This document shows positions 18,906-24,535 of a stretch of DNA of 40,853 bases, in pieces (the first letter of the stretch is position 1; every line of letters starts with the position of its first letter). The position numbers were made by a program, and so were the translations under genes. Origin of the DNA: Hamadaea tsunoensis DSM 44101 (GTDB lineage: Bacteria > Actinomycetota > Actinomycetes > Mycobacteriales > Micromonosporaceae); NCBI RefSeq assembly GCF_000428945.1, contig NZ_AUAX01000045.1, forward strand, positions 1-40,853, in the 5' to 3' direction. The notes under the pieces were generated by a model. The model worked only from the letters and a program-made list of their open reading frames with translations. It was not told the DNA's origin and searched no databases.

Positions 18906-20600
18906 TCAGGACACCATCACCGAGAGGGTGTGCCAGCCGGTCGCCCCGTCGGGGAAGGGCGTCTGGCGCTTCTCCGGCTGGACCGCGCCGGTCGTGTCGG
19001 TCGCGCGTACGCGCAGGCTGTGGCCGCCGGTCCGGGCCTGCCAGGTCAGCCGCCACTGCACCCAGGTGTCGGTGGACGGGACGGGCAGCAGTTCGGCCGG
19101 CATCCACGGGCCGTCGTCGGCCTGCACCTCGACGGCGCGGACACCCCGGTGCTGCGCCCACGCGACCCCGGCGACGGTGACCGGCCCGGCGGTCAGCCCG
19201 GTCGCGAACGGAGCGGGCTTGTCGATCCGGGAGCCCGTCTTGACCGGGGCCCGCCGTGCCCAACCCCGCTTCACCCAGTACGCGTCGTAAGCGTCGAATG
19301 TGGACAGTTCCAATTCCGTCACCCACTTGCAGGATCCGGCGTACCCGTAGAGGCCGGGGGTGAGCATGCGTACCGGGTAGCCGTGCTCGGGCGGGAGCGG
19401 CCGCCCGTCCATCGCCACGGCGAGCATGCCGTCGCGGCCGTCGAGAAGGACCTCGGTGGGCGTACCGATGGTCATGCCGTCCACGGACCGGGCGACGACC
19501 TGGTCGGCGCCGGCCCGCACGCCCACGGCCCGCAGCAGCCCCGCCACCGGTACGCCCAGCCAGCGGGTCGTGCCGATGTACGGCCCGCCGACCTCGTTGG
19601 AGACGCAGTTCAGGGTGATGTCGCGCTCGATCAGGCCGCGGTCGAGCAACTGTCCGAAGTCGAGGGTCGTCGGGTGGTCGACCAGGCCGTGAACGGTCAG
19701 CCGCCAGCGGTCGACGTCGATCTGCGGGACGGTGAGCGCGGTGTCGACACGGTAGAACTTCCCGGCCGGCGTGTAGAAGTCCGGCGTCGTGACGCGCGGG
19801 CCGGCCGGTTCCTTCGGCGCCGGAAGCGCGAGGTTCTCCCGCGAACGGGCCGCGGCGCCGCCCTTCGCCCGCTGGATGACCCCGGCCGCGCCGCCCGCGA
19901 CGACCGCGGCTCCGCCCACGACCCCGGCCGCCACCAGAAACCCCCGCCGCGACCCGCCGCCCTTGACCCCGCCGCCCTTGACCCCGTCGCCCGCGGCCCC
20001 GTCGCCTGCGGGCGCCCCGTCCTTGATCCCGTTTGGATCAGGGAAATCACCCGAATCTTGGCCCAAGATTACGTGCGAATCCCTGATCCAAACGGGATCT
20101 TGGGGACCGGGACCGGGGGCGGGGGCGGGACCGGGGGCGGGGGCGGCGGGAGCGGGGGGAGCCGGTAGGCGGGGGCGGAGGTAGGCGAGGGCGGCTACCG
20201 CGACCACGCCGGCCACCAGTGCGGGAACCACGTCGAAGGGCTGGGCCGCCGGGCGGGTCAGCGCCGCGAACACGCCGACCGCGCCCAGCAGCCCCATCGC
20301 GCACAGCCCCGCGAGTGGCCGGCGCGACGCGAGCATCCCGGCGAGCATCGCCAGGATCACGAGCACGATCCCGATTCCCAGGAGCAGCAACGGTTTGTCG
20401 CGCGTACCGACGGTGCGGACGGCGTACTCCTTGACCGGGGTCGGGGTCGCGTCGATGATCGTGCCGCCGATCGTGACCAGCGGCGACGACTCCGGACGGA
20501 CGATCGCCGCCACGAGCAGCGCCGACGCGAGCCCGAGTCCGGCGGCGAGGAGACCGCTCAGGGCGGCGTACGCGCCCCGAGCGGTCGGGATCAGTCTCAT
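18906..20600 (-). CDS. Membrane-bound molybdopterin oxidoreductase, sulfite oxidase family
   Basis: A 564-residue protein. The N-terminus has four membrane helices (about 11-33, 70-92, 97-113, 122-143). A Pro/Ala/Gly linker follows, then a 25-residue segment encoded by a palindromic repeat (residues 168-192), a Gly/Asp linker, an RR-containing fifth hydrophobic segment (SRRGFLVAAGVVGG) and the extracytoplasmic catalytic domain. Its molybdenum-ligand Cys is C332 in ITLNCVSNEVGG, with IGTTRWLGV after it and the dimerisation-like C-terminal beta domain to the end. No heme domain or YedZ-like partner is present. The start overlaps the end of the fasciclin gene by 4 bases, so the two are coupled and probably SigK-controlled. 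The natural substrate is unknown; oxidation of sulfite or reduction of oxidised methionine are options from the family. Confidence 0.87.
   Translation of the reverse strand: MRLIPTARGAYAALSGLLAAGLGLASALLVAAIVRPESSPLVTIGGTIIDATPTPVKEYAVRTVGTRDKPLLLLGIGIVLVILAMLAGMLASRRPLAGLCAMGLLGAVGVFAALTRPAAQPFDVVPALVAGVVAVAALAYLRPRLPAPPAPAAPAPGPAPAPGPGPQDPVWIRDSHVILGQDSGDFPDPNGIKDGAPAGDGAAGDGVKGGGVKGGGSRRGFLVAAGVVGGAAVVAGGAAGVIQRAKGGAAARSRENLALPAPKEPAGPRVTTPDFYTPAGKFYRVDTALTVPQIDVDRWRLTVHGLVDHPTTLDFGQLLDRGLIERDITLNCVSNEVGGPYIGTTRWLGVPVAGLLRAVGVRAGADQVVARSVDGMTIGTPTEVLLDGRDGMLAVAMDGRPLPPEHGYPVRMLTPGLYGYAGSCKWVTELELSTFDAYDAYWVKRGWARRAPVKTGSRIDKPAPFATGLTAGPVTVAGVAWAQHRGVRAVEVQADDGPWMPAELLPVPSTDTWVQWRLTWQARTGGHSLRVRATDTTGAVQPEKRQTPFPDGATGWHTLSVMVS
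20025..20099. repeat. 75-bp palindromic element inserted in frame in a coding sequence
   Basis: Outer arms 20025-20044 and 20080-20099 are perfect 20-base inverted repeats (GATCCCGTTTGGATCAGGGA). An inner perfect palindrome AATCTTGG-c-CCAAGATT sits at the centre with two 9-base spacers. The length, 75 bases, is a multiple of 3. Read on the minus strand it has no stop and encodes D168-I192 of the molybdopterin oxidoreductase, between two low-complexity linkers. A sister copy of the same length lies at 23827-23901 in a non-coding gap. Confidence 0.92.
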
Positions 20601-22727: not shown

Positions 22728-23474
22728 GTGCTCGTTCTCCTGCCACCTTCGGAGGGCAAGGCCGCCGTTGCGACCGGACCCGCCCTCGACCTCGCCGGAC
22801 TGAGCTTCCCGGAGCTGAACCGGGCGCGGACGCGTACGCTCACCGCGCTGGTCAAGCTGTGCGCCCGCAAGCGGCCCGGCCCGGCCCTCGAAGCGCTCGG
22901 GCTCTCGTCGGGCCAGACCGGCGAGGTGGAGAAGAACGCCGGACTCAAGGACGCGCCGACGATGACGGCGGCGGAGCTCTACACCGGCGTCCTCTACGAC
23001 GCCCTCGAACTCGCCACGCTCCCGCCCGACGCGTCGGCCGCCGCCGCCGACGCGATCGTCATCTCCTCCGGCCTCTGGGGCGGCGTACGCCTCACCGACC
23101 GCATCCCGTCCTACCGCTGCTCGATCGGGGCGAACCTGCCGCCGCTGGGCGGGCTGGCCGCCTTCTGGCGCAAGCACCTCTCGCTGCCGGCCGACGGCCT
23201 CGTCCTCGACCTGCGCTCCTCCGCGTACGCGGCCATGTGGACACCGCCGGCCGACCGGACCGCGACCGTGCGGGTGCTCCACGAGCGGGCCGGAAAGCGT
23301 ACGGTCGTCAGCCACTTCAACAAGGCGACCAAGGGCCGGCTCCTCCGCGACCTGCTGATCGCCGGAGTACGGCCGTCGACCCCGGCGGAACTGGCCGGGG
23401 CGCTGCGCGACCTCAAGTACACGGTCGAGGAGGCGCGGCCGGGCGCCCTGGACGTCATCGTCCACGAACTCTGA
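22728..23474 (+). CDS. yaaA: Peroxide stress protein YaaA (DUF328/UPF0246)
   Basis: A 248-residue cytoplasmic protein. It opens with the family signature LVLLPPSEGK, and carries the middle YTGVLYDALEL, the ISSGLWGGVRLTDRIPSYR segment and the C-terminal SHFNKATKGRLLRDLL. The Escherichia coli homologue limits free iron under peroxide stress and has a DNA-binding fold. The length is normal. It diverges from sigK, with starts 65 bases apart, so the SigK promoter overlaps its own control region. Confidence 0.93.
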   Translation: MLVLLPPSEGKAAVATGPALDLAGLSFPELNRARTRTLTALVKLCARKRPGPALEALGLSSGQTGEVEKNAGLKDAPTMTAAELYTGVLYDALELATLPPDASAAAADAIVISSGLWGGVRLTDRIPSYRCSIGANLPPLGGLAAFWRKHLSLPADGLVLDLRSSAYAAMWTPPADRTATVRVLHERAGKRTVVSHFNKATKGRLLRDLLIAGVRPSTPAELAGALRDLKYTVEEARPGALDVIVHEL

Positions 23475-23482
23475 CCGTCACG

Positions 23483-23518
23483 GGCCTGCTCGAAGGCCTG
23501 CTCGAAGGCCTGCTCGGG
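23483..23518 (+). repeat. Three 12-bp tandem units
   Basis: GGCCTGCTCGAA occurs twice in direct succession, then a third time with a changed end (GGCCTGCTCGGG), starting 9 bases after the yaaA stop. It opens the 650-bp gap 23475-24124, which holds no convincing gene and is mostly repeats. Confidence 0.7.
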
Positions 23519-23529
23519 GGCATGATCAT

Positions 23530-23618
23530 GAGGAGCGCCTTGATCATGTCGCGTCCAATCGGCAAGGAAGCGCTCTCCCGCCGAATGGACGTTACTTGAT
23601 CACGTCGAGGCGCCCTCC
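23530..23618. repeat. Imperfect inverted repeat containing TGATCATGTCGCG
   Basis: The left part (23530-23562, TTGATCATGTCGCGTCCA core) pairs with 23581-23618 (TGGACG and TTGATCACG) with several mismatches and small gaps. The segment 23538-23553 is the exact inverse of part of the third arm in the repeat at 5357-5384, which links the two gaps 18 kb apart. Confidence 0.6.
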
Positions 23619-23726
23619 TGCGCCGGAATGGCGCGACATCATCATGGGGAACCTCGCCGAGTAGCTGTGGGCGGGGTGGCCGGCGGTGATCGAGTACCCG
23701 GAAGCTGTAGAAGTGGATCTCCATTG

Positions 23727-23792
23727 CTTGATCAAGAGCCGGGGATCTGCAAAAACGGGCCGTTTCTGACAGTATCCGGGTACTTGATCAAG
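23727..23792. repeat. 66-bp imperfect palindrome with CTTGATCAAG ends
   Basis: CTTGATCAAG at 23727-23736 recurs at 23783-23792. The interior halves also pair (CCGGGGAT with ATCCGGG, AAAACGG with CCGTTT). The element adjoins, on its left, another TGATC-containing stretch. It is a further member of the palindromes crowding this gap. Confidence 0.65.
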
Positions 23793-23820
23793 CCGACGCC
23801 CCGCGCGCGCCCACAACCGC

Positions 23821-23907
23821 CCCCAAGATCCCGCTTGGATCAGGGATCTCCACGTAATCATGGCCCAAGATTCGGGTGATTTCCCTGATCCAAGCGGGAT
23901 CTTGGGG
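23821..23907. repeat. Sister copy of the 75-bp coding palindrome, with 26-bp arms
   Basis: Perfect 26-base arms (23821-23846 and 23882-23907) extend the same 75-base core (23827-23901) seen inside the oxidoreductase gene at 20025-20099. The core aligns best in inverted orientation, with roughly nine tenths of bases identical, including the 9-base spacers. A GGGGCC-type tract follows on the right in both places. No gene overlaps this copy. Confidence 0.9.
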
Positions 23908-23970
23908 CCGGGGCCGGGGCCGGGGCCGGGGCCGGCGCTGGGGCGGGGGCCGGGGCCGGCGCTGGGGCGG
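23902..23970 (+). repeat. GGGGCC low-complexity tract
   Basis: Iterated GGGGCC and GGGGCGG units directly follow the palindrome. A similar GGGACC/GGGGCG tract follows the in-gene copy at 20100-20160, where it encodes the Pro/Ala/Gly linker. The tract may belong to the mobile unit. Confidence 0.6.
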
Positions 23971-24124: not shown

Positions 24125-24535
24125 ATGACCGGGGTCTACGGAGAAGTGTCCTGGTTCTGCTGCGGCAGCTCGTGGGGCCCGTGCGGCACCGCCGGCCACG
24201 GCGCCTGCGGCACCTGCAACTCGGGCAGCTACCAGCACGCCTGGCCGAACACGTCGGACGCCTGCCACGCCATCACGAACCCCGAGGCGTGCGGCACCAG
24301 CCTGTCGCGGCGCGGCTGCGGCTTCAAGCACTACACCACCAACCGCTGCACGGGCGCCAAGATCGGTACGACGATCGCCGACTGCGGGCCGCAGACGGAC
24401 CTGTTCTGCGGCGAGACGTCGTGCTGCGGTTCGGTGTGCGGGTCGAATCGGCTGATCGACCTCACTCCCGCCGCCTTCAGCGCCATCGCGAGCCTGTCCA
24501 ACGGGCTGCGGCCGGCGTACGTGGATGTGGTGTGA
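24125..24535 (+). CDS. Cysteine-rich double-psi beta-barrel (RlpA/barwin/expansin-like) protein
   Basis: A 136-residue protein with 14 cysteines (12, 13, 20, 28, 31, 47, 56, 65, 75, 87, 95, 100, 101, 105). Double-psi barrel features are visible: NPEACGTSL near residue 55, GTTIADCGP at 81-89, and the closing IDLTPAAFSAIASLSNG (111-127), which matches the end of RlpA and expansin-type domains. So many cysteines imply a disulfide-rich extracytoplasmic protein, yet the N-terminus (MTGVYGEVSWFCC) has no signal peptide. AAAGGAG 7 bases upstream supports this ATG. The stop lies one base before the next gene, which has a Tat leader, so export as a passenger is conceivable. Carbohydrate or wall binding is likely by fold; enzyme activity unknown. 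Confidence 0.75.
   Translation: MTGVYGEVSWFCCGSSWGPCGTAGHGACGTCNSGSYQHAWPNTSDACHAITNPEACGTSLSRRGCGFKHYTTNRCTGAKIGTTIADCGPQTDLFCGETSCCGSVCGSNRLIDLTPAAFSAIASLSNGLRPAYVDVV

Follow-up and report, generated by a model that had tools for sequence, protein, structure and literature searches.

A 75-bp palindromic element found within a gene of Hamadaea tsunoensis DSM 44101 probably represents a REP/REPIN-like family of non-autonomous palindromic repeats that is kept 3' of genes and is rarely translated as an extra loop. Each copy would be composed of two inverted REP-like arms, each an imperfect palindrome of the form GATCC-cgttt-GGATC, arranged around an inner hairpin. Copies would be gained and lost over time, spread by an enzyme acting in trans, and would survive best behind genes, where a strong two-way RNA hairpin at the 3' end (terminator or mRNA end protector) would do little harm. 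Rarely, a copy would enter a gene at a loop or linker and be translated as an extra, probably disordered and tolerated loop, and slippage micro-repeats beside the hairpin would probably enlarge the insert further.

Two copies in the analyzed window

The window, i.e. the entire stretch of 40,853 nucleotides that was analyzed, contains two copies of the element, one within a gene and one between genes. The relevant features are:

18906..20600, - strand: host gene of copy 1, a molybdopterin oxidoreductase (Oxidored_molyb, PF00174) whose N-terminal part is predicted to form a series of helices
19959..20168, - strand: linker of the host protein, approximately residues 145-214, in which the element lies between Pro/Ala/Gly-rich stretches
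20025..20099, + strand: 75-bp copy 1 of the element, in the orientation that puts the CACCCGAATC half first; its frame 0 on the - strand corresponds to oxidoreductase residues 168-192
22728-23474, + strand: YaaA-family gene, upstream neighbor of copy 2
23827..23901, - strand: element copy 2, in a tandem gap, with arm pairing out to 23821-23907
23902..23970, no strand assigned: G-rich micro-repeat flank of copy 2, GGGGCC-type, resembling the C-rich left and G-rich right flanks of the family
24125-24535, + strand: small ORF with a sub-threshold DPBB_1 match, downstream neighbor of copy 2

These two copies had been described in an earlier sequence-only reading of the window, and they are present at the positions given there, each with perfect 20-base arms. 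Copy 1 and the reverse complement of copy 2 agree at 68/75 positions, in keeping with the identity of about nine tenths in inverted orientation that had been claimed. The inner palindrome comprises 17 bases, AATCTTGGCCCAAGATT, i.e. two complementary 8-base arms around one base. Copy 1 runs in frame and without a stop through the open reading frame at 18906-20600 (- strand), in which it encodes residues 168-192, DPVWIRDSHVILGQDSGDFPDPNGI; the Oxidored_molyb Pfam domain of the same protein covers residues 289-442. A scan of the window against Rfam at gathering scores gave no match. On the strand of the host gene, between 18906 and 22746, the oxidoreductase adjoins genes of the fasciclin-domain, RskA-type anti-sigma and ECF-type sigma kinds.

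Copy number in the genome

With up to 3 mismatches allowed, the arm pattern had 547 matches in the 9.48-Mb genome and the reversed control pattern had none; a limit of 2 mismatches left 493. With two arms per copy, the genome thus carries about 270 copies of the element, and the earlier suggestion of a dispersed element, which would have failed had the genome held the two window copies alone, was borne out. In 1,014,264 bases of genomic stretches we collected 146 full and 9 partial copies, and 143 of the 146 full copies are exactly 75 bp long. This sample of the approximately 270 copies combines exact arms from the first contigs, the 40 best BLAST places and the matches of two left-half patterns, and leans to intact copies, with decayed ones under-represented. 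Contig C22 starts within an element copy (L320:1-66), a sign that assembly breaks may occur at hairpins of this kind.

Position relative to genes

Genes in the sampled stretches were called with a custom codon-model gene caller, which is not a standard program; called genes cover 881,766 of the 1,014,264 bases (~87%). The 146 full copies were distributed over 71 convergent, 56 tandem and 8 divergent gaps, 7 positions overlapping a gene end, 3 positions within genes and 1 at the end of a stretch, convergent or tandem gaps thereby holding 127 of them. Relative to the available intergenic sequence, convergent gaps were enriched (71/135 intergenic copies for 21% of intergenic bases, p 3e-16) and divergent gaps were depleted (8/135 for 35% of intergenic bases, p 6e-16). 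Copies lie close to the 3' ends of neighboring genes, at a median distance of 36 nt and within 80 nt in 181 of 198 measurements, and in tandem gaps 45 of the 56 copies are closer to the 3' end of the upstream gene. High copy number, extragenic position mainly 3' of genes and rarity in divergent gaps, all characteristic of REPIN/REP families, were thus found for the element.

Structure and variation of the element

Column counts of 104 and 143 copies, together with two folds, revealed an inverted doublet of REP-like palindromes forming a hairpin, again as in REPIN/REP families. The RNA folds had energies of -54.9 and -63.2 kcal/mol (z -8.5 and -9.0), and copy 2 folded into a single stem across 23821-23907. 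Pairing often extended beyond the 75 bases, the outer pairs 0/76 and -1/77 being A-T or T-A in 84/104 and 88/104 copies, respectively. Complementarity between the arms is only partly kept: pair 8/68 was T-A in 64 of 104 copies, C-G in 16, C-A in 15, T-G in 8 and C-T in 1. Arm covariation was considered as proof of RNA function and set aside as weak.

The 143 copies comprise 130 distinct sequences, with 37 of the 75 sites invariant and 16 sites at which the minor share is at least 10%. Polymorphism is concentrated in the right half, with hardly any variation in the left half. In the C1-C8 sample the exact left arm was present in 75/79 copies and the exact right arm in 19/79, and the 19 copies with the exact right arm had 0.37 mismatches to the consensus in the left half and 3.47 in the right half. 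For all 143 copies the corresponding values were 0.15 for the inner left and 2.98 for the inner right part, these being biased by the copies that had been chosen by their left half. A near-invariant left half next to a polymorphic right half is not predicted by simple master copying and counts against the REP/REPIN-like interpretation. Among the variable sites, 51 of 55 pairs show all four combinations, with a median r2 of 0.01.

Sister elements in related genomes

Outside its own genome, with 493 sites at 2 mismatches, the arm pattern found single stray sites in 3 of 299 other genomes of the family and in 5 of 393 other genomes of the class. The element therefore seemed confined to its own genome, a view that was overturned by a covariance model, which detected sister types in the genus mates and in a genome of another genus (G012). 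This model was built from 16 copies and applied to 61 genomes, with up to 73 candidates scored per genome and stricter filters; it often counts one palindrome on both strands, so that places are fewer than matches. Among the candidates scored, matches numbered at least 53 in G001, 70 in G002 and 69 in G003, the three genus mates, and at least 35 in G012; G009, G011 and G019 had 2, 1 and 3, and 53 of the 61 genomes gave none.

Reading of 40 matches showed the sister type of the genus mates to be GCGC-TGGATCAGGGATC..CGAATCTTGGNCCAAGATTCG..GATCCCTGATCCA-GCGC. In all three mates examined, this sister element combines other outer arms with the same 57-nt core. The core, TGGATC..GATCCA, was located in 142 of 143 copies of the own genome and invariably measures 57 nt there; of the 52 mate matches, it was located in 37, and 35 of these have the same length. 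The type of G012, GATCACGTCTGGTTCGGGGAA.., is more distant and, by eye, shares 17/21 letters with the arm of the own genome.

Placement of the sister copies was evaluated in two 400-kb blocks of G001, in which 23 copies comprised 13 in convergent, 5 in tandem and 1 in divergent gaps, 2 overlapping a gene end and 2 within genes, at a median of 35 nt from gene 3' ends. Their density of approximately 1 per 35 kb, as in the own genome, is possibly inflated, the blocks having been picked for known matches. In other mate stretches, fetched around matches, 29 hits comprised 13 in tandem, 10 in convergent and 1 in divergent gaps, 3 overlapping a gene end, 1 within a gene and 1 at an edge.

Possible gain and loss at orthologous gaps

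We compared 102 orthologous adjacent gene pairs between stretches of the own genome and of the mates; the same own gap may be included in the comparison with more than one mate. Neither an own nor a sister copy was present in 85 of the 102 pairs. Nine of the pairs shared with G001 had an own copy, one of them also a sister copy; two pairs shared with G002 had an own copy only, and one pair shared with G003 had both. A sister copy only was seen in five pairs (two in G002, three in G003).

Ten of the gap comparisons were read by eye. In two cases the counterpart of an own gap is nearly empty: a gap of 205 nt measures 16 nt in G001 and 18 nt in G002, and one of 135 nt measures 10 nt in a relative, here with weak orthology (38% and 57% identity). 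Several orthologous gaps of the mates are occupied by other hairpins, including ones of GATCAGGG or GATCACGG type, and two gaps carry in each species its own type of the element. Judged from these comparisons, occupancy differs between species, and the same gaps tend to hold some hairpin. A second hairpin family was observed in G001, of the kind GCGGATCACGGTTATGCA..TGCATAACCGTGATC, which fills gaps where the own genome has the element (block 6300001, 69126-69235 and 94166-94327).

Since the mates carry other hairpins in several orthologous gaps, the 3'-end hairpin itself may be the selected feature. In the corresponding alternative, the copies would be selected two-way terminators or protectors of mRNA 3' ends that spread by duplication and gene conversion without present transposition. 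Such an origin would account for the placement by stop codons, the avoidance of divergent gaps, the strength of the hairpin, the frequent presence of a different hairpin in the mates and the four-way combinations at 51/55 site pairs, which look as if variants had reassorted between copies. It is disfavored by the nearly empty orthologous gaps (205 compared to 16 and 18 nt; 135 compared to 10 nt, the latter with weak orthology), by the in-gene copies, which are senseless as terminators, and by arm pair 8/68, which is broken in 16/104 copies and T-G in 8/104. We regard this alternative as unlikely, and favor a REP/REPIN-like repeat family.

Copies within genes

Three of the sampled copies of the own genome reside in genes. 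Besides the oxidoreductase of the window, the hosts are an AtuA-family gene (PF07287 and AtuA_ferredoxin) and a short-chain dehydrogenase (PF00106). The copies have a common reading frame and orientation, with the peptide DPVWIRDxHVIxGQDSGDFPDPNGI. The element had been proposed to enter genes without breaking them, and this was upheld by the homologues of all three host genes, none of whose aligned rows shows the segment (106 rows for the oxidoreductase, 9 for the dehydrogenase, 19 for AtuA). The 106 oxidoreductase rows include paralogues, and a few of them are incomplete or unreadable at the linker; no row shows the segment, and the case of distant orthologues all carrying the 25 residues did not arise.

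The clean 75-bp gap that had been anticipated in relatives was not found. Relative to two genus mates the insert of the oxidoreductase measures 58 residues, its residues 138-236 spanning 99 residues here compared to 41 in the homologues of G003 and G002. For the dehydrogenase the corresponding region has 131 residues compared to 55-61 in 9/9 homologues, an insert of 70-76 residues, and for AtuA it has 106 residues compared to 62-96 in 18/19 homologues, the remaining row being incomplete. The inserts thus exceed 25 residues, because low-complexity flanks accompany the element. In predicted models, the insert of the dehydrogenase falls into a low-confidence stretch (residues 60-122), and pLDDT is below 50 at residues 170-188 and 190-214 of the oxidoreductase; the inserts of both proteins are probably disordered.

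Three further in-gene copies were found in the genus mates. Those in an ABC transporter of G003, DPRWIRDQGRILVQDSTENPDPG, and in an AMP-binding enzyme of G001, ITDLGRILAQDSTQIPDP, are both in frame 0; the third, a weak copy, lies close to the C-terminus of a G001 protein whose FtsX match is sub-threshold, and is in another frame. Frame 0 is thus used by 5/6 in-gene copies (3/3 in the own genome, 2/3 in the mates), with the peptide pattern (DPxW)I(R/T)DxxxIxxQDSxxxPDP. Two properties would make an in-gene copy translatable, namely a length of 75, which is divisible by 3, and a frame 0 that is open on either strand in nearly all copies: on the two strands, it was free of stops in 141/143 and 143/143 own copies. 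Of the other frames, one was open in 141/143 copies, one in 50/143 and two in none; in 37 sister cores, frame 0 was open in 35 and 35, and the next frames in 30 and 25. As several frames are open, the agreement of 5/6 copies is only suggestive, and selection for the coding frame was rejected as an explanation, 5/6 being too few when more than one frame is open.

These copies bear on a further alternative, namely that the element is a selfish coding palindrome like the Rickettsia palindromic elements (RPEs), with in-frame insertion into genes as its main niche and the intergenic copies secondary. The in-frame presence in unrelated genes with a recurring peptide is as described for RPEs (5/6 copies in frame 0; homologues of the three own genes insert-free), and the opening of frame 0 on both strands in nearly all copies and host genes that match enzyme or transporter families are likewise as expected from it. 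The large in-ORF share of RPEs was not found, however: only 3/146 own copies are in genes although called genes make up ~87% of the sequence, with 127/146 in convergent or tandem gaps, and the further open frames (141/143, 50/143) weaken the agreement of 5/6. The RPE-like picture drawn in the sequence-only reading is hence not supported as the main habit of the element, and we consider this alternative highly improbable. Hairpins are abundant in high-GC genomes, but an artefact, i.e. a chance or generic GC-rich hairpin belonging to no family, is refuted with near certainty by the arm counts in the window (4 seen compared to 0.01 expected by chance) and in the genome (547 compared to 0 for the reversed pattern).

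Relation to known repeats and search for a mover

REPs lie 3' of genes, in convergent as well as unidirectional gene pairs, and some GTAG- or CGTC-tagged copies lie within ORFs, many of them coding for 20 to 30 residues (PMC3733652). The element is similar to these tagged REPs in its 3'-of-gene placement and occasional in-ORF copies, and differs in the tags, GTAG being near the element ends in 0/143 copies and CGTC/GACG near an end in only 4/143. The main text of PMC3733652 contains no mention of Actinobacteria, Streptomyces or Micromonospora. In the cited papers, REP families are associated with RAYT, except for CGTC REPs, which have no known enzyme (PMC3733652, PMC3116915, PMC8049555). REPINs, in which REP doublets form hairpins, are described from Pseudomonas, E. 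coli and others (PMC3116915, PMC8049555); the element differs from them in that RAYT-type PF01797 was unmatched in its genome, in that its left half is more conserved than its right half, and in its flanks of C-rich and G-rich micro-repeats.

A Y1/RAYT-type transposase (PF01797) gave no match in the own genome at E <=10, in an assembly of 68 contigs and 99.5% completeness in which a gene may have been missed; in the control, 10/14 genomes had matches, 6 of them above the cut-off. RAYT was consequently rejected as the mover. Perfect 20-base arms provide the terminal inverted repeats expected of a MITE. Target-site duplication was not convincing, the best of 13 offsets giving 9/146 copies compared to 3.9 in shuffled sequence at 3 nt, and 1/146 compared to 0.0 at 8 nt. 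Neither a viral carrier (exact arm in 0 IMG/VR contigs) nor a plasmid carrier (no match at 1e-5) was detected.

RPEs measure ~150 bp and lie in ORFs in nearly half of the cases (PMC10969869). Compared by description, the element shares with them the in-frame palindrome in unrelated genes with a recurring peptide, and is distinguished by its 75 bp and its 3/146 in-gene copies. PARCELs are palindromic coding repeats in tandem arrays, associated with membrane proteins (PMC2996958); like them, the element is a 75-nt, 25-residue coding unit of palindromic DNA, but its copies are dispersed singly and mostly non-coding. By analogy, the element resembles REPINs in build and placement and has occasional RPE-like coding copies, without being a proven member of these systems.

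A literature search for dispersed palindromes in actinomycetes and for RPE-type elements, with subscription papers mostly outside its reach, returned no description of this family; the earlier remark that none is described in actinomycetes thus holds within the literature searched and extends no further. Tentatively, the family could be part of an undescribed actinobacterial superfamily of REP-like hairpins, occurring in all members of the genus examined, with a cousin type in a second genus, that would spread without a Y1 transposase, change its whole outer arms lineage by lineage on a 57-nt core and occasionally become a coding insert via a frame open on both strands. A family this dense in high-GC actinomycetes, with no match to a Y1 transposase, would point to another route of hairpin spread, and co-evolution of lineage-specific arms with some factor would be directly testable on the fixed core. 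The placement 3' of genes would offer a test case for transcript ending in these bacteria, and in-frame copies with insert-free homologues would amount to natural experiments on the addition of a loop to functional enzymes.

Flanks and neighboring repeats

In the first 40 nt, the left flanks of the copies have a C content of 0.47-0.59 and the right flanks a G content of 0.46-0.60, in convergent and tandem gaps alike; 49 element-free convergent gaps had no such skew. The sister copies of the mates have flanks with a similar bias (left 0.39-0.46 C, right 0.43-0.45 G). Micro-tandem arrays were present in 66/272 flank windows, compared to 8/264 control windows and 17/272 shuffles. The GC-rich micro-repeats are probably products of slippage beside the strong hairpin.

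Element gaps, counted without the element itself, contained the half-unit GGGATCTTGG 20 times over 20,964 bases, compared to 4 occurrences over 77,903 bases of the remaining gaps. Two loci with the element halves apart, by 370 and 540 bp, were read for a parent transposon with the same ends; other repeats and no called gene lie between the halves; units similar to the TTGATCA type fill these split-half loci (C2 207490-207954 and C1 202053-202680). Further TTGATCA-type repeat units are present in the gap of copy 2 (window 23510-23800). A repeat with the word GAGATCGACGAACC occurs in 18 gaps of the own-genome stretches, with related letters at C2 207490 and C3 493451.
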